A stretch of 64,000 nt of DNA from NCBI RefSeq assembly GCF_016811105.1, contig NZ_JAFBGM010000001.1, forward strand, positions 2,967,409 to 3,031,408, read 5' to 3'. Below, in pieces: positions 29,967 through 63,487 of this stretch. Origin of the DNA: Aurantibacter crassamenti. Its GTDB lineage: Bacteria > Bacteroidota > Bacteroidia > Flavobacteriales > Flavobacteriaceae. Both the position numbers and the translations under genes were made by a program. The notes beneath the pieces are model-generated. The model saw only the letters and a program-made list of their open reading frames with translations, did not search any database and was not told the DNA's origin. How positions within the stretch are numbered: the first letter of the stretch is position 1; every line of letters begins with the position of its first letter.

Positions 29967-30027
29967 AACGCTGTGGTGACCGCGGTCTCTGACCGCATTT
30001 AGGTCAACATGGCGTTTAGCGCGTGTT
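29967..30027. repeat. Palindromic element, possible left end of the array (site 1)
   Basis: GCGCTTAACGC and GCGTTTAGCGC flank an inner TGACCGC repeat in inverted orientation. It ends GTGTTGGC, like the right ends of the other sites. It is unusually GC-rich, and its left core is imperfect. Confidence 0.45.
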
Positions 30028-30065
30028 GGCAGTAGTGATATTTACTTTTCTCTTTGGTATGTAAA

Positions 30066-30962
30066 TTATTCATTTGCATAAAGTACTGTTAGCGTCCTGC
30101 TCATGCTTGAGGGCATGACTGTCATATGTGATTCATGCTCAAAAATTTGCCAGCTCAATTCAATGTTTTCATAATTGATGTCTTGCAAATGCTGACTAAA
30201 TCTTACCATAGTCGGTATCTCCATGGCACTTTCTTTTTCACCAACTGAAATAAAAATCACACTAGGCGGTATTTCCCATGTTTTATTTGTTTTAAATTTT
30301 TGTACGGCCTCTTTCAAAAAATTCTCATTATCCCACCATAATGAAGGACTATTTAATCCAAAACGGTTAAAATATCCATCGGAGTTAACAAGGCAAAAGC
30401 TTGCGAATAATCCACCAAAGGAATGTCCGGCAATTCCTCTATTCTGGTTGATTTTATAGTGTTTTTCAATAAGTGGAGTGATTTCATTTTTAATGCACTG
30501 AAGAAATTTTTCTGCGCCTCCCGAAATCAATTTTCCCTCTGGGATACCAAATTCTTTTTCCGCTTGTCTATCATCCAATACATCTGAATTGGGTGTATAG
30601 TCCAGGTGCCTGTTAGTGTACCAACTTTTCCTGTCATTTCCAGAATGAATTCCGACAATTACGACATCTTGAATCATCCCCATTGCGCTCAACCTGCGGT
30701 TGATTTGATTAAAGGTCGGGAAAAAATAAGCTCCGTCTAAAACATATAATACGGGATACGAAAGTGTGTCTTTTGTGGAATAACTTGCAGGAAAGGAAAT
30801 GTACAGTTGATATTCGTTACCCGTTATGTTAGAGTGTAGTACATGGTCGGGTTCTAGTAACCTTTTTTTAGGTTCTAACTTTTGCCCAAACAAGAAATTG
30901 CTGAAAACCATAAACAGTATAGTATATAGCAGATAAATTTTAGTTTTTGAAATCATGTTCAT
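30066..30962 (-). CDS. Secreted esterase, alpha/beta hydrolase fold (IroE/Fes-like)
   Basis: 298 aa from the ATG at 30960-30962; an ATG two codons in is equally possible. A longer reading frame to the right is only read-through of the neighbouring palindromic site. A signal peptide (about 1-25) is followed by YPVLYVLDGAYFFPT, the oxyanion/strand pattern of the 'putative esterase' family, the nucleophile GHSFGGLF and a late histidine in FEHESHM. Related proteins hydrolyse siderophore or acyl esters. It is the leftmost gene of the cassette region and on the minus strand like all the rest. Confidence 0.8.
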   Translation of the reverse strand: MNMISKTKIYLLYTILFMVFSNFLFGQKLEPKKRLLEPDHVLHSNITGNEYQLYISFPASYSTKDTLSYPVLYVLDGAYFFPTFNQINRRLSAMGMIQDVVIVGIHSGNDRKSWYTNRHLDYTPNSDVLDDRQAEKEFGIPEGKLISGGAEKFLQCIKNEITPLIEKHYKINQNRGIAGHSFGGLFASFCLVNSDGYFNRFGLNSPSLWWDNENFLKEAVQKFKTNKTWEIPPSVIFISVGEKESAMEIPTMVRFSQHLQDINYENIELSWQIFEHESHMTVMPSSMSRTLTVLYANE

Positions 30963-30964
30963 TA

Positions 30965-31189
30965 TGTGTTTATAGTTTCCCTCATTACTACCTACGGGTT
31001 TCGGGCTTATTCGTAAGGTTTGTGTATTTTTATAAAGTCTGCAAAATCTTTTGCCCCGAAGCGTCGGGGTTGCTCTGGACAAGAAAAATAAATCAAAACA
31101 ATAAGCTTTAGCTTCGTGCTAAGACAGAAACAAAAAGTTTCCTTGTACTCGTTACTTCCATAGCTTAGACGTATTGTTTATAGGTTGTT
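30965..31189. repeat. attC-like site, class B with inverted middle (site 2)
   Basis: The ends keep the usual orientation (right end GTATTGTTTATAGGTTGTTAG). The middle reads backwards relative to all other class B sites: the CCCCGAAGCGTCGGGG hairpin and AATAAGCTTTAGCTTCGTGC appear as reverse complements. Confidence 0.7.
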
Positions 31190-31206
31190 AGTGAGTAGTT
31201 TTTTAT

Positions 31207-31848
31207 TTATACAATCTCAGCTAGATTTTTAAAACTATTGATTATATAATTTGGTTTTTGTTTTTCTAATTTTTCCCTCGTGTTGTTTCCATAAGTAACT
31301 CCGCACGTATCGACATAAGCCCTTTGTCCCATTTCAATGTCAAAAATTGTATCGCCAACAACTAAGCATTCATTCAATTGATAGTTATACTTATCGATTA
31401 TGAGATTTACGATGTCAGGTGATGGTTTTTTGTTTTTTGCATCCTCTTCTCCACCTACAAATAAAAAAATATCATAGATGTTTTGCTTTTTTAGAATCTT
31501 AATTAATGCAGCTTTTCCTTTACTTGATGCAACAGTTAAATTTATTCCTTTATAATGAAAATCTAACAAGGTTTCTTTTACTCCATCAAAAAGAGAAATT
31601 GTGTCGATTACAATTTCATTATATTGTTCACGATAAATCAAAGTCGCTTCCTCAATCAATTTTTCGTCAAGTGAAAAGGCTTTTTCAAAGGTAGTTTTCA
31701 GAGGTAACCCTATCAAACTTTCTATTAGATTTTCATCAACGTTTTGGATATTAAAACTATGGCCAACAAATTTCATAGTCTGTATAATGCTTTCTTTTGT
31801 GTCGGCTAAAGTGCCATCAAAATCTAGAATTAGAGTTTTATATTTCAT
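31207..31848 (-). CDS. HAD-superfamily hydrolase, phosphoglycolate-phosphatase-like
   Basis: 213 aa. Motif I LDFDGTLADT has both catalytic aspartates (residues 9 and 11), motif II is TVASSKGKAAL, motif III Lys is in AKNKKPSPD and motif IV is CLVVGDTIFDIEMG. The cap is of the alpha-helical C1 type. It dephosphorylates a small phosphorylated metabolite in the cytoplasm; the substrate is unknown. Single gene between two attC-like sites; left and right unit ends do not match each other. Confidence 0.87.
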   Translation of the reverse strand: MKYKTLILDFDGTLADTKESIIQTMKFVGHSFNIQNVDENLIESLIGLPLKTTFEKAFSLDEKLIEEATLIYREQYNEIVIDTISLFDGVKETLLDFHYKGINLTVASSKGKAALIKILKKQNIYDIFLFVGGEEDAKNKKPSPDIVNLIIDKYNYQLNECLVVGDTIFDIEMGQRAYVDTCGVTYGNNTREKLEKQKPNYIINSFKNLAEIV

Positions 31849-31878
31849 TCTGATTTACATTCTTGTCAAATGTGCTAC

Positions 31879-32022
31879 AACGTGTTTGTTTATGATTTCG
31901 TTGCGTGTTTCAGCAACTAATTTAGCAAATACAAACCGAACCTGCCAGCCGGCAGGCTGGTAGAAAATCTGAGCAGATTTTCGTAAGTAGCCTAGAACTA
32001 GCAATAAATTATATACGTTGTT
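31879..32022. repeat. attC-like site, class A (site 3)
   Basis: AACGTGTTTGT start, CTAATTTAGCAAATA motif, GC-rich insert CCTGCCAGCCGGCAGGCTGG (31941-31960), a GAAAATC/GATTTTC hairpin, AACTAGCAATAAATTATATAC and a GTT end. 144 bp. It follows the 3' end of the DUF6090 gene to its right. Confidence 0.85.
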
Positions 32023-32044
32023 AGCCTTTCGTTATTAATTTCTT

Positions 32045-33121
32045 CTAATTCGTTTCAAGTTTATTTAAGTGAGCTACCATTCCATTTTTCATAACAATCA
32101 AAGATGTAATTTCATTCAAACTATCTCTTATAAACTCTCCTTTAAGGTAAATATCAGTCTGACCAAATATCTTATCTTTTTTTTCAAAATAGAAATAATC
32201 CATATCTTCAAGATCTCCATTCATAATGCCCACTAGACCATTGTCTTGTATCTGAATTTTATAGTTTAAATCTGGAATTGGACCATCGTACCCATCATAC
32301 TTTACAACCTTAAAAGTACCTACATATTCATTTAGTTGTGCCCTTGTTAGATGAACTAAATTATGTGGTATAAAATCGGGAAGCGGTTCATTACTTTCAA
32401 TAAGTGTGTTAATTTGTTTGTATGCGTTAATTGCATTTTTTCTAAATATAGTAACATCATTTGTCAAGTTTATCCAGCCAGCATTTTGGTATAGATATAC
32501 ATCATTTTTATAGTAAGGGTCATTTAGGAAAAAATCAATCATCTCATCTTCTAATTGAGGCTGACCTAATCTGTAATACCAATCTTTACTTTTGGCTAAC
32601 TCGTCCATCACTCTATCTGTAATCAAATCCAATCGATTATCGAACTTGTCTATTTCGTATTTGTTATAAATATATATTTCGTGTAATGGCTCAATAATTG
32701 CTTTTAGCTTTTTCGGAACATTATCAACATTTTCTATGAGGTTGATATATCCATTTGTATGAATTTTCATGTGGAAAGCGTCCATAATAACAAATCTTAA
32801 AGCATTTCTATTATCATTTTTATAATCATCATAGGTTAGTTTATCTGCTTTTACTAAGTTGATGATTGAATCTTGTGTTTTATAATAGGCAATTAGTTCG
32901 TCCGATTTTTGAATATCTAGTCCTAAATCATGTTGTACTTCTTTTAAAATAGAAACAATCTTATTTTCGGTTTTCCGCTGTTCGTTTTTATTATTTATTT
33001 GAAGCGCTATAAGAATACCAATAATAACAAGCACAATCTCGCCTATAGCGTACAGTATGTATTTGCTGAATTTATTTTCTGACAGTAGTTGTTGTCTTAT
33101 ACGTCTGAAGAATTTAATCAT
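32045..33121 (-). CDS. DUF6090 family protein (copy 1)
   Basis: 358 aa. The conserved N-terminus MIKFFRRIRQQLLSENKFSK is followed by one membrane helix (about 24-42, YAIGEIVLVIIGILIALQI) and the NNKNE motif that define DUF6090. The remainder (about 50-355) is a mostly helical extracytoplasmic domain. Function unknown; three copies lie in this array. Left and right unit ends match (GTTAGCCTT). A 109-bp structured insertion separates the gene from its unit's right end and has duplicated the first codons. Confidence 0.8.
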   Translation of the reverse strand: MIKFFRRIRQQLLSENKFSKYILYAIGEIVLVIIGILIALQINNKNEQRKTENKIVSILKEVQHDLGLDIQKSDELIAYYKTQDSIINLVKADKLTYDDYKNDNRNALRFVIMDAFHMKIHTNGYINLIENVDNVPKKLKAIIEPLHEIYIYNKYEIDKFDNRLDLITDRVMDELAKSKDWYYRLGQPQLEDEMIDFFLNDPYYKNDVYLYQNAGWINLTNDVTIFRKNAINAYKQINTLIESNEPLPDFIPHNLVHLTRAQLNEYVGTFKVVKYDGYDGPIPDLNYKIQIQDNGLVGIMNGDLEDMDYFYFEKKDKIFGQTDIYLKGEFIRDSLNEITSLIVMKNGMVAHLNKLETN

Positions 33122-33230
33122 GTTTAAGGATTTTAAATCTTCCGCAAGCGGCTATCTCCACCAAATGTCTGCAGGACATTCGATTTTGCATTGCAAAATT
33201 TTGTTTCGATACGCTAAAGAATTTTATCAT
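33122..33230. repeat. 109-bp palindromic insertion with direct duplication
   Basis: The segment is bounded by CTGAAGAATTTAATCAT (33105-33121) and CTAAAGAATTTTATCAT (33214-33230), two copies of the DUF6090 start region. It holds three small hairpins: CCGC-AA-GCGG, AATGTC-TGCAG-GACATT and ATTTTGCATTGCAAAAT. It resembles a small non-autonomous insertion. Confidence 0.6.
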
Positions 33231-33259
33231 TTGGTTAATGGTTGATCGTAATGAAGGCT

Positions 33260-33383
33260 AACGTGTTTGTATATGGTTCGTTACGTGGTTTAAGCACCTA
33301 ATTTAGCAAATAAAAACCGATTAGAAAGTCCGTGAGGATTTTCGTAAGTAGGCTAAAACTAGCAATAAATAATATACGGTGTT
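33260..33383. repeat. attC-like site, class A (site 4)
   Basis: AACGTGTTTGTATATGG start, CTAATTTAGCAAATA, hairpin GAAAGTCC/GGATTTTC, AACTAGCAATAAATAATATAC and a GTT end. 124 bp, without the GC insert. Confidence 0.85.
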
Positions 33384-33460
33384 GGCAACTGGCTTTTATT
33401 TAAATAGCTTATTTAGTTCTGTAAATATTATCTAAAGGTTTGTGATGAAGAAGTCTTTAT

Positions 33461-33883
33461 TCATTGCAACTTTTTTCCAAATAATACCACACCTAATAGA
33501 CCAGCGACTCCTAGAATAGTATACATTTTCCAAGGAAAGTAACCTTCTAATTTTGCAGACCTAGGATTTTTTTTAGGATAATAAACTTTCACTTTATCAC
33601 CTATAGCATATTTTTTTACTTTGTTAGCTGAGCCAGCATAAAGTGTGATATTCTTTCCTTCTGAAGTAGTAAAAGTATAAATTGGAGAGTGAGTTAAGCT
33701 ACTACCAGTACTACTTTGCTGATTATATGTTGCTGAATTATAGTCTATTATAGTTGCTTCAGTAGTTTCTCCGTTTATATAAATTAAATAGGTTGCTACA
33801 GATTTCCATATTGCAAAAATTAACATTATGCAGCATGTAATAAATAGAAAAATATTTAAGTAAGAAGCGTTTGTTTTGAGCAT
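33461..33883 (-). CDS. DUF3592 membrane protein
   Basis: 140 aa. TM1 is about 8-30 and TM2 about 115-135. The domain between them shows the DUF3592 pattern: EATIIDYNSATY, HSPIYTFTTSEGKNITL, KKYAIGDKVKVYYPKKNPRSAKLEG. A small inner-membrane protein of unknown role, common in Bacteroidetes. Single-gene unit; its ends match over nine bases (GTTGGCAAC). Confidence 0.85.
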   Translation of the reverse strand: MLKTNASYLNIFLFITCCIMLIFAIWKSVATYLIYINGETTEATIIDYNSATYNQQSSTGSSLTHSPIYTFTTSEGKNITLYAGSANKVKKYAIGDKVKVYYPKKNPRSAKLEGYFPWKMYTILGVAGLLGVVLFGKKLQ

Positions 33884-33969
33884 ATTAACTTAATTTTTAA
33901 AATATCGTTTCATCATTACAATTGTTCTGTTAAATTCTTGAATAGTAGGTTTTTCTTTAGTTTGTTGCC

Positions 33970-34095
33970 AACGTTTATGTATATGGAAAGTTGCGTGTTT
34001 GTATGCGAGGATTTTCCGAAGTCAAATCAGAAGCTAGCAAACAAAGCAACTAACATTGGTTAAGCACAAAACAGCAATTTTTTATATACTGTGTT
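33970..34095. repeat. attC-like site, class A variant (site 5)
   Basis: Starts AACGTTTATGTATATGG and ends TTTATATACTGTGTT. The middle shows GCGTGTTTGTATGCGAGGATTTTC, partly rearranged relative to other class A sites. Confidence 0.75.
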
Positions 34096-34106
34096 ATGGG
34101 CTGGTT

Positions 34107-34706
34107 TTATTTTGTCCAACCAACAGTTTTTTTCCATTCCTCAATTTCCTGTTTTCTTTTTTCAAAGTCTTTCGGTGGCGATTGTTTATTATTTTTAGCT
34201 TGTTTTCTTATAATTTTAGTTTTTTCTTCAATTGAATTAAGTCCAATAGATTTTCGCCTTTGATTCACTTTTTTCAAGTCATCAAAAGTATTAGGGCTCA
34301 ATTCTCCGCTTACATCCCAATCAAATTGAGTTCCATAAAGTTGTGGTTTATTCTCAAAAACTGCTATACGGTCAGTCAAGTACGCTAAATTTTTTGAATT
34401 GGCTTTATTTTGATGAACAGCAATTTCTAATAATTTCACACATTTTTTCATAAAATTAGGTTGTCCGATAGAATGTTGTATTATTAACCAAGTTGCTTCA
34501 TTTGCTTCTTAGCCAACTTTGTCAAGCGTTGGATAACCTATTTTGTTTATTATTTCATTTAGAGTTTTGGCATTTTTGTTGTGAATTTCAGCCATTTCTT
34601 TATTGTAGCCTTCACCAAGTTTTCCACTTTCAATTAGCTTTTCACGAAATTCCAAATCAGCATTTTTCAGTTCGATTATTTTTTTTGCAATTTCGTTGTA
34701 ATTCAT
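34107..34706 (-). pseudogene. DUF6624 protein split by an in-frame stop codon
   Basis: Reading from the ATG at 34706, the first 65 codons (MNYNEIAKKIIELKN ... TLDKVG) end at a TAA (34509-34511). The same frame continues without further stops (EANEATWLIIQHSIGQPNF, then KKCVKLLEIAVHQ) to 34107. The joined 199-residue product has the DUF6624 layout, including NLAYLTDRIAVFENKPQLYGTQF near residue 120. So one nonsense change splits a normal-length gene; re-initiation at the ATG at 34451 is possible. Unit ends match over nine bases (GTTATGGGC). Confidence 0.8.
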
Positions 34707-34738
34707 TCTGCTAATTGTGTTGTGTTCAACTTGCCCAT

Positions 34739-34938
34739 AACGTCTGAGCTAAGCGTAGTGCGGGGGTAAGGAAACTTTTCGTTTCCGTCTGCGCACGAAG
34801 CTAAAGCTTATTGTTTTGATTTATTTTTTTCTGTCCAGAGCAACCCCGACACTTCGGGGCCAAAGATTTTGCGGACTTCATAAAAATACACAAACCTTTC
34901 GATTAAGTCCGAAGCCCGTATTGTTTATAGGTTGTGTT
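34739..34938. repeat. attC-like site, class B (site 6)
   Basis: Starts AACGTCTGAGCTAAGCGTAGTGCGGG. It contains the GGAAACTTTTCGTTTCC hairpin, GCACGAAGCTAAAGCTTATTG, the CCCCGACACTTCGGGG hairpin and GCCCGTATTGTTTATAG, and ends GTT. Confidence 0.85.
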
Positions 34939-34952
34939 GTACCACGTTATTT

Positions 34953-35618
34953 TTAGAACGTTAAGGGTAACGCAAATCCGCCACCAAAAAGACCAACTGA
35001 TTTATTCACATAAGTCGCAGGTTTGTATTCCGTTAAATTTTCTAATAGTTGACTTATTAATTCTCTTTTATCCTCAGGAACTTCTCCACGTATTTTGGTT
35101 TCTAATTTTCCGTTTATGTCAACATTTAATAGAATGCTTGCTCGTCCTTTAATTCGTTTTAGTTCCCTAGAATTTTTTATTTCCGCTCTAATTAATTTCA
35201 TGTAATTAGGATTCAGTTCCTTTTTGTTGATTATGAGGGGAATAAATTTGTCTTTGTACAGAAATTTTGGAAGTTCATCGACATGGAATAAAAACATTTT
35301 TTCAGAGTACTTAAGTCCTCCGCATTGCTCTTTAATCAAGTCATACGCTCCAAAGTCGCCCAGCGAGTATGATTTTTGGAGTAGTTCACATGCCTTAGAT
35401 TTATTCCCTAAATTCAATTCAGTTCCAGCTAAATTGTAAATAGCGTCTTTATTCGTTGAGTCAATTTTAATTATGGATTCGTAGTTGATTTTTGCATTTT
35501 GAAAATCAGAATTTTCAAAGGCATCGTTACCTTTAATTAAGAGTCTTTCAATTTCAGATTCCTGTCCGAATAAAGGGCAGATTGAAAATAGAATAATTAA
35601 GATTAGCAATTTTTTCAT
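34953..35618 (-). CDS. Secreted TPR protein with TonB-C-like end
   Basis: 221 aa from the ATG at 35616-35618. Signal peptide 1-19. TPR-like helices cover about 22-95 (GNDAFENSDFQNAKINYESI, LNLGNKSKACELLQKSYSLG). The C-terminal about 90 residues (GRASILLNVDINGKLETKI ... TEYKPATYVNKSVGLFGGG) resemble the TonB C-terminal domain found in many flavobacterial periplasmic proteins. The start codon lies 14 nt from the unit boundary. Unit ends match over ten bases (GTTGTACCAC). Confidence 0.75.
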   Translation of the reverse strand: MKKLLILIILFSICPLFGQESEIERLLIKGNDAFENSDFQNAKINYESIIKIDSTNKDAIYNLAGTELNLGNKSKACELLQKSYSLGDFGAYDLIKEQCGGLKYSEKMFLFHVDELPKFLYKDKFIPLIINKKELNPNYMKLIRAEIKNSRELKRIKGRASILLNVDINGKLETKIRGEVPEDKRELISQLLENLTEYKPATYVNKSVGLFGGGFALPLTF

Positions 35619-35628
35619 AATGTGGTAC

Positions 35629-35790
35629 AACGGTTTAGCTATGAACAGTACGGGAGCAAACTAGCGTTTACTTTCCACCTCGTACATAGCAAAATCTTTT
35701 TGTTTTATTTTTCTTTTCCTGTCTAAAGCAACCCCGATGCTTCGGGGCCAAAGATTTTGCGGACTTTAAAACAAGCTTAAGTCAATGGAG
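35629..35790. repeat. attC-like site, class B, right arm lost (site 7)
   Basis: The left arm AACGGTTTAGCTATGAACAGTACGGG and the CCCCGATGCTTCGGGG hairpin are present. After GCGGACTTTA the sequence departs from class B, and no GCCCGTATTG arm or clear GTT end is seen. Confidence 0.65.
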
Positions 35791-35838: not shown

Positions 35839-36570
35839 TTATTTCTTGGTTATATAGTGTAAATCTTTGGAAGAATATTCGTCCCAAAGAACCTCCAGTC
35901 TTTGTGAAGTTTTCTCGTCTACTACGTTTGTTGTCGCCCCGTTAATTTTATTTCTACTAATTATTGTTGGAGAAATAACGCTTTGTCCATTCCAAGTTTC
36001 TATGAAATCAAAGCCGAATATATACTTTTGGTATTTTTTTCCTATGTTTGGAAGTATCATTATAGCTTCTCTTTCTTCACTATTTTTTCCCTTTGTAAAA
36101 ATAATCAATGGGCCTTTGGATTCGCGTCTTAAACCTTGCATTAAATATTTGTGAATTATTCCGTCATTATCATCTACTTTAATTTCTGTACTTAAAATTC
36201 CTGGTGCTAAAGAGGATGAAAAATTCATATTATAATAATTCCAAAATTTTTCTCCATTTTCATTTATTGTCAGATAATAAACATGCCAATCAGTTTTAAA
36301 TTCTCTAATCAAATTTTCATCTGAATGAATTTTTGATAATTGATTTTGATTCAAAATATTCAACACCGAATCAAAGAAATCTTTATTTTTGAAGTGCGAA
36401 ATCACTCCACTTACGGCTGTACCAAATAATGTACCCCCTAGTGCTATTAAAAATTCTCCAAAAAAACCATTATCAGGGGTCATATAAATGCCCAATCCAA
36501 TTGTCGTTAATGAAAGTAGAATTAGAATTGAATTGACGACAGTATAAATACTAATTTTTCGTTGTTTCAT
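35839..36570 (-). CDS. Hypothetical two-helix membrane protein
   Basis: 243 aa. Two N-terminal membrane helices (about 8-28 and 37-58) form a hairpin anchor. The remaining about 180 residues are soluble, beginning FKNKDFFDSVLNILNQNQL, with WHVYYLTINENGEKFWNYYNM and a basic segment KYLMQGLRRESKGPL. No family recognised. The layout (short membrane hairpin plus cytoplasmic domain) recalls effector-type membrane proteins, but no function is claimed. Its unit is bounded by degenerate sites. Confidence 0.6.
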   Translation of the reverse strand: MKQRKISIYTVVNSILILLSLTTIGLGIYMTPDNGFFGEFLIALGGTLFGTAVSGVISHFKNKDFFDSVLNILNQNQLSKIHSDENLIREFKTDWHVYYLTINENGEKFWNYYNMNFSSSLAPGILSTEIKVDDNDGIIHKYLMQGLRRESKGPLIIFTKGKNSEEREAIMILPNIGKKYQKYIFGFDFIETWNGQSVISPTIISRNKINGATTNVVDEKTSQRLEVLWDEYSSKDLHYITKK

Positions 36571-36580
36571 AATATTGAAT

Positions 36581-36815: not shown

Positions 36816-36854
36816 TTAATTCTTAAAACAACAAAAGTCAACTAAAAATTTATA

Positions 36855-54412: not shown

Positions 54413-54421
54413 GTGCTTTCG

Positions 54422-55963: not shown

Positions 55964-55976
55964 ACCTGTAGTTTTT

Positions 55977-56510: not shown

Positions 56511-56520
56511 AATTACAGGT

Positions 56521-56564: not shown

Positions 56565-56575
56565 GTAACACGTTT

Positions 56576-57595
56576 TTATTTCAAATATTTAAGTAGAAAT
56601 TCTATTTGCGCCTTACTCGATTTATCAAATAGTTCACTAGGATAATATAGTAATCCAAAATGTCCTCCATCAATGTCTAACCATTCTTTTGGTTGATTGA
56701 TATGATCAAATACATATTTAGTCACTTGAGGATTAGCACCATTCATTTCATCATCGGTCGCAACAACCATTAATATTGGAGCCTTTAATTTATCTGTAAG
56801 TTGACCAAGGTTGAAGTTATCTGGAACTTCAATGTTTGAAAATGAAACTATATTCTTCCAATTAGTACCAAACCGACCACCATATTCTATAAACCAATTA
56901 TATGCTGTTAAATCGGTCAATACTGAAGGTGTTCCTAATTGGTCAATTGAGACAATTGGCATTTGCTCTGTAGTTGTATGCGGTAAACTCTTAATGTCGT
57001 CAAGTAGTAGCGTTTCTTTCGCAAAAGAATATGAACTACGGTCTTTATCTTCTATTGGTATTTCTTCACCAAGTGCAGGAATCATCATAATTACAGCTTT
57101 AACTCTTTCGTCCATTGTACCTGCTAAAAAAGCCTCTCTAGAGCTCATACTTGCTCCCCAAACGGCAATTTTATTGGCATTGATCTCAGGTTGAGAAGAA
57201 ATAAAATCAATTGCATCAATATAGCCTCTGGATTGTACCCAAAAATTAATTTCTTGACGTGGTTCTCCATCGCTTATTCCTAGATTTCTGTGGTCATATA
57301 ATGCAACAGCGAAACCTGCTTTGCTAAATTTCTCCGCATACTTATCGGCTGTCATCCCATTAATAGTAGTTGTAAATCCATGAGCCATTATGACAACAGG
57401 GCTTTTATCCGACTTAATCTCTGGTAGATATAATCTCCCTCTTAACATTGCTCCCTGTGACTTGAATTCAATGTTTCTATACATAATTTTGTCAGCTGTA
57501 TTTGGTTCAGATGCTTCCACAGGTTTCTGATTATGGGTGCAGGATAAAAATGTCCATATCAAGATTCCTAATAGATTTTTAGATATTCTTATCAT
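56576..57595 (-). CDS. Lipoprotein alpha/beta hydrolase
   Basis: 339 aa. Lipobox TFLSCTHN (Cys at about 19). Hydrolase core about 50-335: VIMAHGFTTTINGM (oxyanion region), nucleophile VWGASMSSREAF, acid region VVATDDEMNGAN and the catalytic His in DGGHFGLLYY. Related to the X-prolyl-peptidase-like/acyl hydrolases acting outside the cytoplasm. First cassette gene after the minimal site; it shares its unit with a small ABM-like gene 12 bp upstream. Confidence 0.85.
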   Translation of the reverse strand: MIRISKNLLGILIWTFLSCTHNQKPVEASEPNTADKIMYRNIEFKSQGAMLRGRLYLPEIKSDKSPVVIMAHGFTTTINGMTADKYAEKFSKAGFAVALYDHRNLGISDGEPRQEINFWVQSRGYIDAIDFISSQPEINANKIAVWGASMSSREAFLAGTMDERVKAVIMMIPALGEEIPIEDKDRSSYSFAKETLLLDDIKSLPHTTTEQMPIVSIDQLGTPSVLTDLTAYNWFIEYGGRFGTNWKNIVSFSNIEVPDNFNLGQLTDKLKAPILMVVATDDEMNGANPQVTKYVFDHINQPKEWLDIDGGHFGLLYYPSELFDKSSKAQIEFLLKYLK

Positions 57596-57607
57596 TAATG
57601 TGATTGT

Positions 57608-57940
57608 TTATAAAAATAACTCTCCTTTTAATTGATAGTGTTCTGCTTTGCTGTCATATCTTTTTAATACTCGTTTTGCATTATCAGGTATATATGCTTT
57701 TTCATAATTTTCACCAGAAAATATTTTTACTGAATCTATTGAGTCAAATTGAAGAACGAGGAAAAATTCTACTTCATCGTTCATTTTCTTTGTGGAAATG
57801 CTCACTTTTTCCAATCCGTCAACACCATTCCTTTTCACTGTAGGAAAGACCTCATTGATAAGCATATCTTCATAAATAGGTCCATTTTCTATTGTGGTCC
57901 AGCCTTTCCAAGTTCTTATAATTTTTATACCATTACTCAT
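57608..57940 (-). CDS. Antibiotic biosynthesis monooxygenase (ABM)-like protein
   Basis: 110 aa. The ferredoxin-like half-barrel shows IKIIRTWKGWTTIENGPIYEDMLINEVFPTV and VEFFLVLQFDSIDSVKIFSGENYEKAYIP, the usual layout of dimeric ABM proteins. Real monooxygenase activity is uncertain; many members are structural homologues. It is the first gene of the two-gene unit with the lipoprotein hydrolase. Unit ends match over ten bases (GTTGTAACAC). Confidence 0.75.
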   Translation of the reverse strand: MSNGIKIIRTWKGWTTIENGPIYEDMLINEVFPTVKRNGVDGLEKVSISTKKMNDEVEFFLVLQFDSIDSVKIFSGENYEKAYIPDNAKRVLKRYDSKAEHYQLKGELFL

Positions 57941-57991
57941 TAATCATCAGTTTTAAAAAGTTATTAAGTTATATCTCCTTTAATGTGTTAC

Positions 57992-58190
57992 AACGGTTGA
58001 GCTATGAACAGTACGGGAGCAAGTTAGCACTTGCTTTCCGCCACGCACATAGCGAAATCTTTTTGTTTTGTTTTTTCTTTTCCTGTCCAAAGCAACCCCG
58101 ATTCTTCGGGGCCAAAGATTTTGCGGACTTCATAAAAATACACAAACCTTTCGATTAAGCCCTAAGCCCGTATTGTTTATAGGTTTTGTT
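57992..58190. repeat. attC-like site, class B (site 28)
   Basis: AACGGTTGAGCTATGAACAGTACGGG start, CTTTCCGCCACGCACATAGCG, CCCCGATTCTTCGGGG hairpin, AAATACACAAACC, GCCCGTATTGTTTATAG and a GTT end. Outer arms pair over 16 positions with G-T wobble. Confidence 0.87.
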
Positions 58191-58201
58191 GTAAACAGTA
58201 T

Positions 58202-58780
58202 TTATTTTTTTACTTTCAATAGATAGCTAATAATACCGCCAATAACAATCAATAGCCAAATATTGAAAGGTCCTTTTATAATTTGCAGAAATAGATTTTG
58301 ATTGATTATAGTTTTCTTTGGATTTAGACGAACTAGTTCATGGAATATTGTTCCTTTGATTTCATACTGAACATTTTCCTTTGTGGTAAATGTTCGCCAG
58401 TCTCTTTTAGACTCCTCGTAGGTTCCGTTACCAATTTTTTTTTGAGACAGAATCCTCCCATTTTTATTGAACCAAATCTGTTCATTCCCTCTTGCAGTAG
58501 TAATAAGAATTTCTTCATGCTCGGTCAGGTTCATTGTAAATGTTCCGCCATATGCCTCTAAATCCCAGTTCTTAAGAAAATTTCCATCCTCGTCATAGAC
58601 CTGAACTTTCTCATAAAAACCGCTACCAACATATATATTATTTTCTTTATCTACTACGAATCCTTTAATATCTCCCAAAGGGATTTCTGTATTTTCATTA
58701 TAAAAATAAGAGCCGCTCCAAAACCCTATAACTCCGACAATTGCCAAAATATTAGAAAAAACACTTATAATTTTCTTCAT
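58202..58780 (-). CDS. Hypothetical membrane protein with NHL-like strands
   Basis: 192 aa. A N-terminal helix (about 8-26) and a C-terminal helix (about 168-188) flank an extracytoplasmic beta segment (IKGFVVDKENNIYVGSGFYEKVQVYDEDGNFLKNW), which resembles one or two NHL/beta-propeller blades. Too short for a full propeller. The ATG lies 13 nt from the unit boundary, the shortest leader in the array. Unit ends match at 12 of 13 positions. Confidence 0.65.
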   Translation of the reverse strand: MKKIISVFSNILAIVGVIGFWSGSYFYNENTEIPLGDIKGFVVDKENNIYVGSGFYEKVQVYDEDGNFLKNWDLEAYGGTFTMNLTEHEEILITTARGNEQIWFNKNGRILSQKKIGNGTYEESKRDWRTFTTKENVQYEIKGTIFHELVRLNPKKTIINQNLFLQIIKGPFNIWLLIVIGGIISYLLKVKK

Positions 58781-58789
58781 ATTGTTTAC

Positions 58790-58913
58790 AACGGTATCGT
58801 ATAAGAATAGTAGCGGATATTATTGCACTAACTTTTCAGTTAAACACAGACATTTTTTATATTTACTTACTTTAGTTTTAGCGATTAAACCGCTATTATT
58901 TTTATACTATGTT
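58790..58913. repeat. attC-like site, class C-like (site 29)
   Basis: AACGGTATCGTATAAGAATAGTAGCGG start; right arm AACCGCTATTATTTTTATACTATGTT pairs with it. Inner ACTAACTTTTCAGTTAAACACAG. 124 bp. Confidence 0.78.
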
Positions 58914-58921
58914 AGCCACAG

Positions 58922-60214
58922 TTATTCTTTGTCCCTAATTTTTTTCAAATTCTTGTAGTACTCTGGTATTCTCCAATCATTGTTCTTATTTCCTATTTCA
59001 GCCGCCTTTTCATAATGCTTTTTAGCAGCCTTATAGTCGCCATTTGCTGCATAGAGGTCACCAAGTGCATTTTGAAGCTGTGCATTAGCCGGATATTTAT
59101 CAATTGCGAATGACAATATTTCCTTTGCTTGTTCCGAGTTTTCATGTTTGAGGTAGAATTGCGCATAATCAACTAAATGTGGCGCGAATGATTTTTCCAA
59201 AAGACCATCATTTTCGAAAATTGTAAATAAAGAATCAAACCATAGATAATCATTTTCGGAAATGGCCACAAAAGTTAGATTTCTCCTTGTGGCATGTTTG
59301 GAATCGTCATCATTTGTTATATTCAGTTGTGCCTGTCTTTTCTCATAAAATGTTTTAATATAATTTATGCCGCCGAGTTGTTCAAATTCCGCTTTACTCT
59401 TAAAAGTTAAGTAATGATAAAACTTATAGTATTCCTTGAGTCCATCTTGAAGAGTTCGGTAGGCACACATTTCATGAGTTGATTCATTTATAACTTTGTG
59501 ATGCCATTTTAGGCCTTTGGGTCCTTCCTTTTTTAAGAGCGTTTTTAAAGTTTTGGTGCCATAAAAAACAGGATAGTCTAACTCTCCCTCACCTATATAC
59601 AGAAATGTATTTAATTTTTTGTTTTCGTTCAAGAACCTTTTTAGTGATAAATATTCACTTTCAAGGTTTTCAAAATATTCACCATATAATGGAGCGGGAC
59701 TTGCAGCTATATGGGCCGAAAACAATTCAGGTTTTTGAGATAAAGTTTGAATAACAAATCCCCCAGTAGTTTCCCAGCCAAACAAGATTCGTTCATCAGA
59801 AGTCCTATATTTTTTGTCGATAAATGTAATTAGGTCCGATTCAATAGATTTCAAGAAAGAAGAGGCATTTTCTCTTCCCCAATCCCATCTGTTGTCATTA
59901 TCTGTTGTGATTCCAACTATAATGAACTCTGGAGTATGCCTAGGACCATTACGATGTGTGAGCTCAGCCCGAATACTCAAAGCATGAGGAAAAAACCATT
60001 GTCCATCAAGGATGTAAAGGACTGGATACAAATCCTCCGAATTATTATAATTCGTAGGAGTAGAAACTTGTATGTGTAAACGCTGCTTTTCTAAGAAATT
60101 TGATTGTATTTCATAGGCTTTCCCAATTATAATGTCAGTAGGAGCGGTTTGGGCAAATAGTTCTCCCAAACCTATAAATAACAGTAAAAGGCAAAATTTT
60201 AGGTAAATTTTCAT
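58922..60214 (-). CDS. Secreted esterase with C-terminal TPR repeats
   Basis: 430 aa from the ATG at 60212-60214 (MKIYLKFCLLLLFIG). Signal peptide 1-21. The esterase-fold domain (about 25-280) has LYPVLYILDGQWFF, and the elbow GWETTGGF replaces the usual G-x-S-x-G serine with Thr, so catalysis is uncertain. A His follows in NESTHEMCAY. TPRs occupy about 335-425 (ALGDLYAANGDYKAAKKHYEKAAEIG). Paralogue of the enzyme at 30066-30962, but longer. Unit ends match over ten bases (GTTAGCCACA). Confidence 0.8.
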   Translation of the reverse strand: MKIYLKFCLLLLFIGLGELFAQTAPTDIIIGKAYEIQSNFLEKQRLHIQVSTPTNYNNSEDLYPVLYILDGQWFFPHALSIRAELTHRNGPRHTPEFIIVGITTDNDNRWDWGRENASSFLKSIESDLITFIDKKYRTSDERILFGWETTGGFVIQTLSQKPELFSAHIAASPAPLYGEYFENLESEYLSLKRFLNENKKLNTFLYIGEGELDYPVFYGTKTLKTLLKKEGPKGLKWHHKVINESTHEMCAYRTLQDGLKEYYKFYHYLTFKSKAEFEQLGGINYIKTFYEKRQAQLNITNDDDSKHATRRNLTFVAISENDYLWFDSLFTIFENDGLLEKSFAPHLVDYAQFYLKHENSEQAKEILSFAIDKYPANAQLQNALGDLYAANGDYKAAKKHYEKAAEIGNKNNDWRIPEYYKNLKKIRDKE

Positions 60215-60232
60215 TTTATTTTGATTGTGGCT

Positions 60233-60422
60233 AACGGTTGAGCTATGAACAGTACGGTAGCAAACTAGCGTTTGCTTTCCGCCACGCACATAGCGAAATC
60301 TTTTGGTTTTCTTTTTTTCTTTGTCCCGCTAAAAAGCAAAATCCATAAGATTTTGCGGACATCATAAAAATACACAAACCCAGCGATTAAGCCCTAAGCC
60401 CGTATTGTTTATAGGTTGTGTT
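60233..60422. repeat. attC-like site, class B (site 30)
   Basis: AACGGTTGAGCTATGAACAGTACGG start, CTTTCCGCCACGCACATAGCG, AAAATCCATAAGATTTTGCGG hairpin, GCCCGTATTGTTTATAG and a GTT end. 190 bp. Confidence 0.87.
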
Positions 60423-60426
60423 GGCA

Positions 60427-61095
60427 TTAGTTTTTTCCTGTCTTGTTCCACCAAAATATTAAATAAATCAAAGTTGATTGTAAAATAGCATTTAATATAT
60501 AATTCAAATATGGATGATTTGAAGATATGAGAGGAATTTTATACCCAACCCAAGTTAAAAATCCGATTACACCAATCAGTATTATGATTCCAGCAATAGA
60601 GCCTAATACGTTTTTCAATTCATTATGAGGGTAACCTCTAAATGGCAAAATTATAAGCATAATTATTAGAATAATGAAAAAATAACCAGATGTCAAAGTC
60701 ATCCAAAATAATGAGCGAATGGGTTTGTTTATAGTATTATCGTTTTTAATAACTGGACTTTTAATTTCGGTTGTGTCCGATTTTTTGAAAATATTGATTT
60801 GGTTCAAATCTAAATTCCGTAATCGGTCAGAATAGTGCTTTCTTTTAAAAATGCGATTTTCTAACTCAATCAGTTCGGCTAATTTTAGAGAATCTGTTTT
60901 ATATATTTTCTTTAGGTTGTCAATTGATTCTAATTTTTCAATTTTATTATCCAGATGATAGTCGTAAGAGAAATTAAAATAGTAATCAGAAGTAGTTAAA
61001 ACAAAAATAGAAATGATAAATATAGAAGTCCTTAAACCAAAATGGATAGATTTATTTTCAAAAAATTTAAGTATTCTTTCTAAAATTTTATCCAT
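60427..61095 (-). CDS. Hypothetical membrane protein with coiled-coil
   Basis: 222 aa. TM1 at about 18-36, then a charged helical region (about 50-110: LDNKIEKLESIDNLKKIY) likely to be a coiled coil, then three C-terminal helices (about 130-150, 165-185, 197-217). No domain recognised. Inner-membrane protein of unknown role. Start ATG lies 20 nt from the boundary; unit ends match at 12 of 13 positions (GTTGGCATTA). Confidence 0.65.
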   Translation of the reverse strand: MDKILERILKFFENKSIHFGLRTSIFIISIFVLTTSDYYFNFSYDYHLDNKIEKLESIDNLKKIYKTDSLKLAELIELENRIFKRKHYSDRLRNLDLNQINIFKKSDTTEIKSPVIKNDNTINKPIRSLFWMTLTSGYFFIILIIMLIILPFRGYPHNELKNVLGSIAGIIILIGVIGFLTWVGYKIPLISSNHPYLNYILNAILQSTLIYLIFWWNKTGKN

Positions 61096-61111
61096 TTCTC
61101 AAATTAATGCC

Positions 61112-61303
61112 AACGTTTAAGCTATGGCAAGTAGGGCAGGCAAGGAAACTTTTTGTTTCCGTCTGGTCTGCGAGCCAGAGCTTTTTGTTTTGTAATTATT
61201 TTTTCTTTTTTAATTGCCAAATCCAAAAGATTTGGCGGACTTAGTAAACACGCCCAAGCCATTAAAAATAGCACTTTATGCCCTATTTGCTATAGGTATT
61301 GTT
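61112..61303. repeat. attC-like site, class C (site 31)
   Basis: AACGTTTAAGCTATGGCAAGTAGGGCAGG start, GGTCTGCGAGCCAGAGC hairpin, CCAAATCCAAAAGATTTGGCGG hairpin, GCCCTATTTGCTATAGG and a GTT end. 192 bp, nearly identical to site 32. Confidence 0.86.
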
Positions 61304-61311
61304 GGCAAACG

Positions 61312-61749
61312 TTATTCTTGTTTCCATCCTTTATAGGCAATGACTATTCCGAATAAACATAGACCTATTCCAGCTATCCAGTTGTTTTCTTTTTCGTATT
61401 CGTTTAAAAATATTATTTTGCTTTTTTCTGCATTTGTTAGCATTGTTATTTTCTTTTTTCCTTCTACCAAACTGCAAAATTTATGTCCTGTTTTTTTATT
61501 AAAAACCTTACCATTGAATTTAAGTTTTGCAAATCCACCTCTACGTCCAATTCGCTCGCAGTCCGGAGGAGATTCTATAACTTCAACCATAACTTTTCTT
61601 CCCTCAGTGGTTATGTCCATTTGAGTTTTAGCTTTGTTCATTGCTAACAGTCCAAATAACAGAATAAAAAGTCCGCCAATTATCAATCCATAATTGGCGA
61701 TAAACTTGATTATTGGATAGTAAAAATCGGAATTCAGTCCTGATTTCAT
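61312..61749 (-). CDS. Hypothetical membrane protein, DUF3592-like layout
   Basis: 145 aa from the ATG at 61747-61749 (MKSGLNSDFYYP), 14 nt from the unit boundary. TM1 about 18-35, a short soluble domain (about 45-120: GRKVMVEVIESPPDCERIGRRGGFAKLKFNGKVFNKKTG) and TM2 about 125-142. The helix-domain-helix plan resembles DUF3592-type proteins, but the domain is not clearly that family. Unit ends match at 12 of 13 positions (GTTGGCAAAC). Confidence 0.65.
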   Translation of the reverse strand: MKSGLNSDFYYPIIKFIANYGLIIGGLFILLFGLLAMNKAKTQMDITTEGRKVMVEVIESPPDCERIGRRGGFAKLKFNGKVFNKKTGHKFCSLVEGKKKITMLTNAEKSKIIFLNEYEKENNWIAGIGLCLFGIVIAYKGWKQE

Positions 61750-61759
61750 AATGTTTGCC

Positions 61760-61951
61760 AACGTCTCGGCTATGGCAAGTAGGGCAGGCAAGGAAACTTT
61801 TCGTTTCCATCTGGTCTGCGAGCCAGAGCTTTTTGTTTTGTAATTGTTTTTTCTTTTTTAATTGCCAAATCCAAAAGATTTGGCGGACTTAACAAACACG
61901 TCAAAGCCTTTAAACATAGCGCTTTATGCCCTATTTGCTATAGGCATTGTT
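61760..61951. repeat. attC-like site, class C (site 32)
   Basis: AACGTCTCGGCTATGGCAAGTAGGGCAGG start, GGTCTGCGAGCCAGAGC and CCAAATCCAAAAGATTTGGCGG hairpins, GCCCTATTTGCTATAGG and a GTT end. 192 bp, same length as its neighbour site 31. A 148-aa gene reads 21 nt into it. Confidence 0.86.
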
Positions 61952-62377
61952 GTCATTAGTTTTTTCCACGTTCTTATAATAATCTCCCGATTCCCATTCT
62001 CTTTTTCCAATATATTTTCCACAATAATCATAGCGTTCAATATATTCGTTTTCTCCTTTCCGGTTATATCTGAATACCCAAATTTCGCCATTCTTTAGCC
62101 TTACCCTCCGAAATCGAATGTCCTCTCCAGAGTCCATCGTTTTCATAAAAGCAGATTTTCTTACTAAGACTACCTCTTCGTTTTCATCAAAAACTCGGTC
62201 GATTAAAATAACTTTTTTGTGTCCCAAGTCCCAGAAAAGAAACTTACGTTTTTTCTCAATGTGTTCCGTTTTTAATGTCACGTTTTCGATTCCACAATTC
62301 CCGTTTCCAATTGCGTTTTCCACTTCATATTCAGATGCGATTTTTTCATCTGTCGGATTTACGAAAGAGCATAGCAA
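61931..62377 (-). CDS. Hypothetical exported protein, no ATG start
   Basis: About 148 aa if begun at the TTG at 62375-62377, but the hydrophobic signal (FKILARFILLCSFVNP) starts further upstream. The frame is open back to the unit boundary without any ATG, so an ATT, ATA or TTG start is needed. The body is mixed charged/aromatic (FLFWDLGHKKVILIDRVFDEN, IRFRRVRLKNGEIWVFRYNRKG). The last seven codons, ending in TAG, come from site 32. Unit ends match at 13 of 14 positions (GTTGTCATTA). Confidence 0.55.
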   Translation of the reverse strand: MLCSFVNPTDEKIASEYEVENAIGNGNCGIENVTLKTEHIEKKRKFLFWDLGHKKVILIDRVFDENEEVVLVRKSAFMKTMDSGEDIRFRRVRLKNGEIWVFRYNRKGENEYIERYDYCGKYIGKREWESGDYYKNVEKTNDNNAYSK

Positions 62378-62431
62378 AATAAATCTGGCTAAAATTTTGA
62401 AGTTAATTTCTATTGCTTTAAAATTAATGAC

Positions 62432-62619
62432 AACGATTTAGCTAAGCGTAGTGCGGAAGCAAGGAAACTTTTCGTTTCCGTCTGAGCACGAAGCTAAAGC
62501 TTATTGTTTAGTTTTATTTTTTCTTGTCCAAAGCTAAATCCATAAGATTTAGCGACTTCATAAATATACACAGACCTTTCGATTTTGCCTTAAATTCAGC
62601 ATTACGTTTAGGTTTTGTT
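62432..62619. repeat. attC-like site, class B (site 33)
   Basis: AACGATTTAGCTAAGCGTAGTGCGG start, GGAAACTTTTCGTTTCC hairpin, GCACGAAGCTAAAGCTTATTG, AAATCCATAAGATTTAGCG hairpin, ATACACAGACC, ACGTTTAGG and a GTT end. 188 bp. Confidence 0.85.
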
Positions 62620-62629
62620 AGGCATAGTT

Positions 62630-63451
62630 TTATTCCCGTTCTACTGACGTTTCCCATCCGTCATATTCTCCGCCATACTTCTGTGCTACGATTCTCAAAT
62701 TAGAGGTAATTGGATAAATAGAATCAATATCAACATTGTCTATTCTCCAAACTTGTAATTCATAAGGTAGAGTAGTTTCTTTATTGATTCCAGCATTTTG
62801 GACTTTGAAGTTAGATTTAGTTAATTCTTCTTGACATTTATTCATTTCTAATTCTTCAGAAAAATATAACCAATGGTCAACCCGCCTTGCCTTTGTTAGT
62901 TTGTCTCCGGCCTCCTCCAAATTCCGCAATACAGATTGGTCAGCCATATAATTTTTAATTTCCTCATTTGGATATAAAAAATCTCGATAATAAGTCCATT
63001 CTTTATCTTCTTTAACATTCAGATAAAATTTATAATCGGGATAATTGTCTTTGTAGAATTTTTCAATTTTTGAAATAATATTTTTTGGCTCCTTAATGTA
63101 GAAATACTCCAGTCTCTCATAGTTAAACATAAATGAACCGACTAATATAAATTCCGTTTCCCCTTCTACAATTTCGATTAAATCATCGGCGACTTTATGT
63201 AAAACACTAAAAGTTTCATTTTCAGGGAAACCGTTTTCTTTAGAGGTTTCATATGTAAGTCCAGTAACCAAGACATAATCATAATGTTCAATTGGCGTAT
63301 AATCGATTAAGTCCATTCTCAAAGTTGTAGAACCTGATTTTCCATCTTCATATGTAGCCATATAAGTGTCCCAACGTTCTTCTGAATTTTGTGCATTCAT
63401 TATTGTAGTAGAAAATATAAATATCAGTAATATTTTAAGTAGTATTCTCAT
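62630..63451 (-). CDS. DUF695 / RraB-like domain protein, exported
   Basis: 273 aa. Signal peptide about 1-20. The first half (WDTYMATYEDGKSGSTTLRMDL, about 27-130) matches DUF695. The second half (VDHWLYFSEELEMNKCQEELTKSNFKV, about 190-270) looks like the RraB fold (regulator of ribonuclease activity B). In the cytoplasm RraB modulates RNase E; here a signal peptide argues against that role. The combination DUF695-RraB is known in Bacteroidetes. Unit ends match over ten bases (GTTAGGCATA). Confidence 0.78.
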   Translation of the reverse strand: MRILLKILLIFIFSTTIMNAQNSEERWDTYMATYEDGKSGSTTLRMDLIDYTPIEHYDYVLVTGLTYETSKENGFPENETFSVLHKVADDLIEIVEGETEFILVGSFMFNYERLEYFYIKEPKNIISKIEKFYKDNYPDYKFYLNVKEDKEWTYYRDFLYPNEEIKNYMADQSVLRNLEEAGDKLTKARRVDHWLYFSEELEMNKCQEELTKSNFKVQNAGINKETTLPYELQVWRIDNVDIDSIYPITSNLRIVAQKYGGEYDGWETSVERE

Positions 63452-63467
63452 TTTTTAAATTATGCCT

Positions 63468-63487
63468 AACGGTTGGGCTCGTATGTT
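63468..63487. repeat. attC-like site, left core only, cut by IS110 element (site 34)
   Basis: Only AACGGTTGGGCT is recognisable before the sequence changes into the IS110-family left end. The rest of the site should lie to the right of the element, outside the window. Confidence 0.6.

Follow-up and report, generated by a model that had tools for sequence, protein, structure and literature searches.

Background

The described systems closest to the locus reported here are sedentary chromosomal integrons, clusters of attC sites lacking an integrase (CALINs) and the XerC/XerD-dif and XerA recombinases. According to excerpts of PMC2727003, attC sites are limited by AAC and GTT, pair with themselves over 9–11 nucleotides (nt), and have their strand decided by one extrahelical G. 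IntegronFinder requires the IntI-specific domain near patch III (PMC9668308, excerpt), and the excerpted IntegronFinder 2.0 survey gives Salinibacter ruber as the only Bacteroidetes with a complete integron, besides Chlorobi and Ignavibacteriae (PMC9024848). The window analyzed here is a 64,000-nt stretch of Aurantibacter crassamenti (Flavobacteriaceae). It is the final 64 kb of the first of two contigs (C1, 3,031,408 bases; C2, 1,488,220 bases) of a genome with a completeness of 99.69%, called G000 or the own genome below. We put at roughly 0.8 the probability that the window holds most of an orphan cassette array, the likely product of an integron-type tyrosine recombinase other than IntI, which would act on folded single strands.

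The array resembles a sedentary chromosomal integron in its tandem one-way cassettes, its AAC/GTT-bounded sites and its own-end self-pairing of about 10 nt. The sites likewise consist of an R stem, an unpaired spacer, an L stem and a variable top, with the boundary at GTT and better pairing on the bottom strand, and many arrays have an integrase gene at one end. In contrast to integrons, the recombinase here has no IntI insert and mostly carries an extra N-terminal domain, its gene mostly reads in the same direction as the array and meets it with the 3′ end, and in place of the extrahelical bases of IntI-linked sites the new sites show G.T wobbles at set positions and seldom a bulge. By its cassette sequences the new system would be a kind of integron, while two defining features, the IntI domain and the extrahelical bases, are missing. 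A CALIN is defined by two or more attC sites that the attC covariance model detects within 4 kb, with no IntI. Like a CALIN, the own array is a cluster of sites with no integrase found, but relatives tie these sites to another recombinase. No recognizable report of such a system was found in a literature search confined to open-licence PMC papers.

The cassette array and its extent

Cassette genes lie on the minus strand, which is called top or sense here, and the plus strand is called bottom. Between positions 63470 and 29967 of the window, 32 unit starts and 29 unit ends were placed, and 29 sites of 44–244 nt alternate with the units (Table 1). A sequence-only reading of this stretch had proposed about 33 sites of 44–240 bp between minus-strand units, which the 29 placed sites together with decayed site remnants at about 39.5–35.8 kb bear out. 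GTT is lost in four of the 29 sites (E20, E21, E23 and E31). In a search for chains of units with complementary own ends, the sense strand of the window reached a score of 90.9 and the reversed sequence one of 8.3; no chain came from the complement strand or from the first 29.9 kb.

The array carries on over the contig gap, up to C2:876. Past an insertion sequence (IS) of the IS110 type, the second half of the interrupted site is found together with an extra cassette, C2:876-232, whose ends match (GTTGCCATTA/TAATGGCAAC). Upstream of this cassette stands a palindromic leader, aataaacgtaatagtacgtttagcctatt, followed by GTT; the gene beside C2:876 we take to be TerC, from reading the sequence alone. 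No recombinase was seen at either array end, where reading frames were judged by eye, and the C2 leader is adjoined by ordinary-looking frames. The integrase that the sequence-only reading had placed to the right of position 64000 was thus not found there: the window stops at the end of C1 within the IS110-type element, and the continuation on C2 holds no recombinase that we could see. A classical IntI right of the window was rejected, and no protein of the whole genome exceeds the IntI cut-off (TIGR02249). The genome encodes four PF00589 proteins, two of Xer type and two longer tyrosine recombinases, all elsewhere than at the array start. Only two of its proteins match the array integrase of relatives, both Xer-like (best 1.4e-27). 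Since no integrase was found by it, the array is called an orphan here, of which, as far as sequence can tell, the attI-like leader and the cassettes remain.

Cassette ends and site architecture

On the top strand, an intact unit starts with GTT and seven free nucleotides (N7) and ends with the reverse complement of N7 and AAC, followed by a palindrome up to the next GTT. Read in sense orientation, the sites start with AAC and finish with (C)GTT. A spacer of 2–3 nt follows AAC and one of 5–6 nt precedes GTT in 152/171 sites from several genomes, in agreement with the stem asymmetry noted in the sequence-only reading. Own ends match at five or more of the seven free positions in 23 of the 29 window units, compared with 73 of 812 swapped pairs and 2 of 28 comparisons of a unit end with the start of its neighbor. 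Six units show no such match, two of them with lost GTT. Unit ends were placed partly by eye and partly by own-end match, which makes this test partly circular; bases 11–14 were not used for placing.

We call the sites attC-like because self-pairing over 9–11 nt and AAC/GTT limits are known for attC; they show both the AAC/GTT boundaries and the R″/R′ self-pairing within one cassette. The idea that own-end pairing is exclusive to the new system was rejected, as the IntI arrays of the phylum show it too and it is published for attC. The integron core GTTRRRY occurs in 11/187 cassettes here vs 10/44 in IntI arrays of the phylum and is of little discriminating use. The N7 words themselves recur: nine of the 19 words of the own genome are among the 60 of the complete chromosome G014, and one word can occur in different cassettes. 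The set of words looks restricted.

Wobble pairs on the bottom strand

The own genome, G014 and 17 other loci supplied 187 distinct cassettes out of 216 for an analysis of strand pairing; these cassettes were selected on bases 1–10 and the flanking A and C. At base 11, 152 of the 187 have A.C on the top strand, i.e. T.G on the bottom, while nine have a Watson-Crick pair and one has G.T on top. Pairing is seen in 156 cassettes at base 12 and in 166 at base 13, partly since both bases are near constant themselves. The inner stems of 164 out of 173 sites gave 369 A.C vs 27 G.T pairs on the top strand, compared with 82 vs 74 in shuffled sites. Overall, the bottom strand out-pairs the top strand in 160/167 sites and the reverse is seen in three. 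Such wobbles would single out the bottom strand as the one that folds.

IntI-linked sites served as a control. Five of 14 fetched IntI loci were used; eight gave no chain, and the remaining one, L143, gave a chain and was omitted from the base-11 and bulge counts. Base-11 A.C occurs in 0/44 units of the five loci, or in 2/49 when L143 is included. Allowing one bulged nucleotide in the left arm adds at least two pairs in 6/167 sites here vs 27/39 IntI-linked sites, and in the right arm in 28/167 vs 18/39 (single bulges, first 14 pairs only). Thus, the extrahelical bases in the L″ arm that are typical of attC are not a feature of the new sites. With less weight, we propose that strand choice, which falls to extrahelical bases in attC, may fall to the wobbles here.

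A tyrosine recombinase beside arrays of relatives

A covariance model, R1, was built from six class-B sites (E10, E12, E18, E28, E29 and E30). It finds sites in 35 of 37 sampled Flavobacteriaceae and in 3 of 23 other members of the order. The own genome has 15 matches, seven of them outside the window in smaller groups. Such groups of like sites include L073 (G000:C1:2885000-2904999, with a five-unit chain), L009 and L074.

The complete chromosome G014 holds two arrays with together about 100 units with matching ends, a number rounded down from 51 + 58 in view of chance units at chain ends. Their chains score 284 and 331, compared with 21.1 (20 units) and 14.7 (26 units) for the reversed sequence. 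Directly before the first cassette of array 2, 115 bp away and co-oriented, lies a gene for a tyrosine recombinase of 390 amino acids (aa). A leader of about 110 bp, near-identical between the two, precedes each array. The first cassette is immediately preceded by an AAAC..GTTT palindrome in 4/14 loci and in the own genome; G032, a fifth locus, has it with a single change. A further tyrosine-recombinase frame (G014:C1:2765957-2766718) lies within array 2 and is perhaps itself a cassette.

Homologues of the array recombinase with E < 1e-45, some of them partial or with a stop, are present in 32/37 family genomes and 4/23 others; this limit was chosen after the data were seen, in a gap from 5.6e-50 to 8.6e-41. 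A recombinase that co-occurs with the sites, whose absence the sequence-only reading had named as evidence against a cassette array, was found in relatives. Of 60 genomes, 34 have both enzyme and sites, two the enzyme only, four the sites only and 20 neither (p = 4.8e-10; 0.015 within the family and 0.067 outside, uncorrected for kinship). G646, tallied as enzyme only, has a five-unit chain. In 10 of 20 fetched enzyme loci the first cassette starts 42–145 bp after the enzyme match in the same orientation, and in four (G025, G012, G003 and G646) it is 0.7–2.9 kb off, also in the same orientation.

The arrangement recurs in named genomes. Out of at least 589 relatives, 80 loci were fetched and 67 had enough sequence to test. 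A strong first cassette lies 35–303 bp after the integrase in 20 of these 67, including 18 of the 24 best-matching testable loci; the controls gave none on reversed sequence and three on the 5′ side. Among these loci are Algoriphagus ornithinivorans, Aquiflexum, Cyclobacterium (a metagenome-assembled genome, MAG), Rufibacter, Winogradskyella ursingii, Seonamhaeicola aphaedonensis, Zunongwangia mangrovi and Algibacter onchidii. An array integrase with a strong first cassette also occurs in L203 and L204, from MAGs named Spirochaetota and Firmicutes, through wrong binning or spread.

The array enzyme lacks the IntI insert

The six catalytic columns are kept in 36 aligned homologues, with the tyrosine as a gap in one. 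From the box I Arg to the box II His there are 89–90 aa in 36/36 homologues, 131 in 18/18 IntI and 92–96 in 16 Xer proteins. The IntI-specific insert is absent from all 36 homologues and present in all 18 IntI rows. The G014 enzyme scores 197 bits against the IntI model TIGR02249 (cut-off 265) and 185.9 and 183.1 bits against TIGR02224 and TIGR02225 (cut-offs 335.15 and 329.6). The nearest curated model is NF040815 (XerA/integron integrase) with 214.1 bits at a cut-off of 220, and the best match among solved structures is XerA, then Vibrio IntI.

A tree of 65 rows, rooted at the midpoint only and with five IntI rows dropped beforehand, separates IntI (100/100) and Xer (100/99). The new enzymes and IntI are together split from Xer with 100/99, and the array enzyme falls outside the XerC and XerD clades. 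Automatic frame picking omitted L027, L030, L081, L168, L163, L003 and L004. Because the branch of the new enzymes has a support of only 53/68, IntI might have arisen near or among them. The closeness to NF040815 and the XerA structure is a likeness to the Xer systems, but the split from the group's own XerC/XerD, the link to cassette arrays and the extra N-terminal domain set the array enzyme apart. In an excerpted tyrosine recombinase classification (PMC8138268) the insert is not fully conserved in the integron-like group, which may cover these enzymes.

The N-terminal part of about 85 residues is present in 30/36 homologues and, judged by length, absent from forms of 272–305 aa. Its predicted fold (predicted local distance difference test, 88) looks most like the SMARCAL1 HARP domain and the XPB damage-recognition domain (DRD), with scores that do not prove kinship. 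Pfam gave only sub-threshold matches with conflicting names for it. A short recombinase form of 272–281 aa without this domain occurs at L102, L105, L094, L098 and L164 (G029, G016, G030, G001 and G010); in G029, the 5′ end of its gene and the first cassette are 115 bp apart.

Cassettes as movable units

Duplicated cassettes were sought among 103 cassettes of G014 with a following start, a copy pair being two of equal length and >90% identity. This resulted in 31 copy pairs from 10 cassette kinds, 18 of them from one kind; one unit of 437–440 bp is present in 13 copies. Identity is 98.3% in the body and 98.7% in the own site (29 pairs of equal site length) and drops to 34% in the following 100 nt. 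The next cassette differs in all 31 pairs, and identity counted from the next GTT onward runs for 3 nt in 17 pairs and for 4–6 nt in the other 14. At the 5′ border it is mostly lost after 0–11 nt, with a mean of 46% over 100 nt, and one pair also has the preceding unit in common. All 31 duplicate pairs are thus bounded at G/TT, suggesting that units move as units.

Comparisons between genomes gave a similar picture. When 19.5 kb of the own array was searched against the congener G184, the matches were mainly site-sized, the others being the IS element and the unit 7 genes; identical gene order and content, which the sequence-only reading had named as evidence against a cassette array if shared by distant relatives, was not seen in this comparison. 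A 20-kb stretch of G014 array 1 likewise gave mostly site-sized matches and a few longer ones (440–850 bp) in congeners and other genera. In a comparison aimed at an empty site in the congener, the left flank maps to scattered places.

Weighing the explanations

The sequence-only reading had left a choice between a divergent attC family and a parallel cassette system. This choice is supported by our results, and the parallel system fits best because the array-side recombinase of relatives is not IntI. The following observations weigh against it. That the array enzyme carries out the recombination is something we infer from sequence. In the window alone, DNA folding energy makes the bottom strand more stable in only 20/29 sites. 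The strand bias is stronger in the new sites than in IntI-linked ones but not exclusive to them, because the latter also pair better on the bottom strand (16 vs 2 of 39). Own-end pairing is common to IntI arrays in other Bacteroidota classes. In several relatives the enzyme does not stand in the usual place: the array is 7.9 kb from it in G034, it is divergent from the array in G029 (115 bp), and it is in opposite orientation to the array in G001 and G184. The enzyme is present in G007 and G641 with no array detected in the fetched stretch, sites occur without integrase in the own genome, G019 (32 R1 hits), G018 and G640, and 47/67 of the named loci have no strong first cassette. The new enzymes form one clade with the low support given above. 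Lastly, new-look sites are not confined to IntI-free genomes, because G253, of another class, has a short array of them (L143) 3.8 kb from an IntI gene, with base-11 A.C in 2/5 units. This genome gave no R1 match and has a homologue of the array enzyme (C1:1064301-1065182) 145 kb away; this homologue lacks the N-terminal part, and its match contains a flagged stop. G253 is possibly a meeting point of both systems.

G253 would also suit an ordinary integron remnant (CALIN), in which a true IntI, since lost from the family, made the cassettes and the adjacent non-IntI recombinases are incidental. The AAC/GTT ends, the 9–11 nt self-pairing (PMC2727003, excerpt) and the spacer geometry are shared with attC, the IntI arrays of other Bacteroidota classes have the same own-end pairing, and IntI exceeds the cut-off in 105 of 395 sampled genomes of the phylum, which is more than the excerpted complete-genome survey suggests. 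We nevertheless regard this explanation as unlikely. IntI exceeds the cut-off in 0/249 genomes of the family, in a search whose own controls gave no hit either but which was positive in the wider phylum set, the base-11 wobble and the rarity of left-arm bulge gains separate the new sites from IntI-linked ones, the enzyme adjoins the first cassette in relatives, and G253 itself also has an array-type enzyme. Alternatively, another enzyme or replication slippage could make the arrays, with recombinase genes merely gathering at their edges, as arrays without a nearby integrase (own genome, G019) and integrases without an array in reach might suggest. This is improbable given that the gene lies at one fixed end, 42–145 bp away and in one orientation, in 10/20 loci across very diverged sequences, and that unit ends are base-exact in G014.

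XerC/XerD also act on dif modules and are used by some phages. That the host pair moves the cassettes would agree with the own genome having only two Xer-type and two longer tyrosine recombinases above the PF00589 cut-off, and with the short palindromes that form some leaders before the first cassette. However, Xer-like matches occur in 59/60 genomes, with arrays or without, and it is a separate recombinase family, split from Xer with 100/99, that adjoins the first cassette, so we rate this idea slightly below the previous one. The least credible explanation treats the palindromes as static repeats, terminators or RNA structures of ordinary operons. They do lie between co-directed genes and can fold, but the better-pairing strand is opposite the mRNA, no Rfam family matches the sites up to an E of 1, own-end complementarity spans the gene, and unit duplication in G014 is bounded at GTT. 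An RNA element or terminator was rejected on the first two of these grounds.

A possible mechanism

In the parallel cassette system, the bottom strand of a circular cassette would fold into a stem of about 13–14 bp, in which the R part of GTT and N7 is followed by a G.T wobble at base 11 and 2–3 further pairs. An unpaired spacer (3 vs 5–6 nt) would separate it from the inner stem (L part), whose bases 7, 8 and 12 would form G.T wobbles. Protomers of the recombinase would attach to both stems and cut at GTT, and the cassette would be joined to a double-stranded attI-like site past the integrase gene. The N-terminal domain with its HARP/XPB-DRD-like fold might help to read the folded DNA, a step to which we attach less weight.

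Somewhat better than even, in our judgement, is the chance that this is a second integron: a lineage free of the IntI insert that builds cassette arrays with 50 units or more in Flavobacteriaceae and further Bacteroidota, reads single-stranded hairpins with a HARP/XPB-like N-terminal domain, has its strand chosen by G.T wobbles and goes unseen by tools that ask for IntI. If the system is active, a large bacterial family has a means of gene capture that is absent from the standard survey lists. It would also mean that the IntI insert and the extrahelical bases, which are held essential for integron recombination, are replaceable, and the origin of structure-read recombination would become testable by comparison of the two solutions.

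An IS110-type element at the contig break

Both in the own genome and in the congener G184, an IS110-type element occupies the same place in a site, about 7 nt ahead of its GTT. The loci are 63478-64000 of the window with L007 1-120, and L075 around 15080-16550 for the G184 copy. The family assignment rests on the G184 copy of 357 aa, which has DEDD_Tnp_IS110 and Transposase_20 domains; the 56-aa piece of the own copy, cut by the contig end, matched nothing alone. According to an excerpt of PMC11187229, the IS1111/IS110 elements ISPst6 and ISKpn4 insert into attC sites. The likeness lies in insertion near one site end, whereas the targets here are non-IntI sites. By analogy, the element would be a parasite of recombination sites.

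Features of the window

Table 1. Cassette units, sites and the interrupting element in the window (complementarity of unit ends as matches out of seven free positions)
Feature	Position	Strand	Remark
Cassette array, part inside window	29967..63470	minus (genes and unit sense)	folded strand predicted plus
IS110-type element, left part	63478..64000	plus	transposase start 63833; broken by contig end; other end C2:1-~120
Site remnant, GTT side (GTT + 7 nt)	63468..63477	plus	between unit 1 and cassette C2:876-232; cut by IS110-type element
Unit 1	62617..63470	minus	RraB/DUF695 protein; ends GTTAGGCATA / TATGCCTAAC
E1	62432..62619	plus	
Unit 2	61949..62434	minus	
E2	61760..61951	plus	
Unit 3	61301..61762	minus	
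E3	61112..61303	plus	
Unit 4	60420..61114	minus	
E4	60233..60422	plus	
Unit 5	58911..60235	minus	esterase + TPR
E5	58790..58913	plus	
Unit 6	58188..58792	minus	
E6	57992..58190	plus	
Unit 7	56562..57994	minus	two genes (one alpha/beta hydrolase); sole unit with gene bodies matched in G184
E7	56521..56564	plus	minimal 44-nt hairpin; folded alone, plus strand 13 pairs incl. 2 G.T, minus strand 10 pairs
Unit 8	55961..56523	minus	
E8	55775..55963	plus	
Unit 9	55303..55777	minus	
E9	55182..55305	plus	
Unit 10	54410..55184	minus	DUF6090
E10	54290..54412	plus	class B, R1
Unit 11	52263..54292	minus	three genes (RibD_C, ArsR-type helix-turn-helix (HTH), AHSA1/glyoxalase)
E11	52143..52265	plus	
Unit 12	51359..52145	minus	DUF6090
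E12	51218..51361	plus	class B, R1
Unit 13	50513..51220	minus	
E13	50359..50515	plus	
Unit 14	49875..50361	minus	
E14	49638..49877	plus	
Unit 15	49186..49640	minus	glyoxalase; ends non-complementary, 2/7
E15	49006..49188	plus	
Unit 16	48505..49008	minus	5/7
E16	48318..48507	plus	
Unit 17	47374..48320	minus	ends non-complementary, 3/7
E17	47255..47376	plus	
Unit 18	46343..47257	minus	ArsR-type HTH + AHSA1
E18	46223..46345	plus	class B, R1
Unit 19	44450..46225	minus	cNMP-binding protein + short-chain dehydrogenase; 4/7
E19	44332..44452	plus	
Unit 20	43719..44334	minus	DUF2306
E20	43635..43721	plus	GTT lost
Unit 21	43015..43637	minus	ends decayed, 4/7
E21	42850..43017	plus	GTT lost
Unit 22	41182..42852	minus	cNMP-binding protein + epimerase; ends decayed, 1/7
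E22	41007..41184	plus	
Unit 23	39736..41009	minus	adenylate/guanylate cyclase domain
E23	39495..39738	plus	GTT lost
Units 24-26	35839..39497	minus	decayed stretch; starts 39497, 38892, 36617; no ends placed
Unit 27	34936..35631	minus	
E27	34739..34938	plus	
Unit 28	34093..34741	minus	partial DUF6624 match
E28	33970..34095	plus	R1
Unit 29	33381..33972	minus	DUF3592
E29	33260..33383	plus	R1
Unit 30	32020..33262	minus	DUF6090
E30	31879..32022	plus	R1
Unit 31	31187..31881	minus	HAD hydrolase; ends non-complementary, 1/7
E31	30993..31189	plus	GTT lost; inner part inverted (by eye)
Unit 32	30025..30995	minus	esterase; start GTA instead of GTT; 6/7
E32	29967..30027	plus	terminal palindrome, last site of array

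The cargo is mixed. Pfam identified esterases, an alpha/beta hydrolase, a HAD hydrolase, dehydrogenases, a cyclase domain, ArsR-type regulators with AHSA1 proteins and three DUF6090 proteins, while 13 of the 39 scanned cassette proteins had no match. A search of viral contigs with one cassette protein as query gave no match. The far border of the array is flanked by a perfect, terminator-like inverted repeat of 18 bp (29881-29918 of the window).

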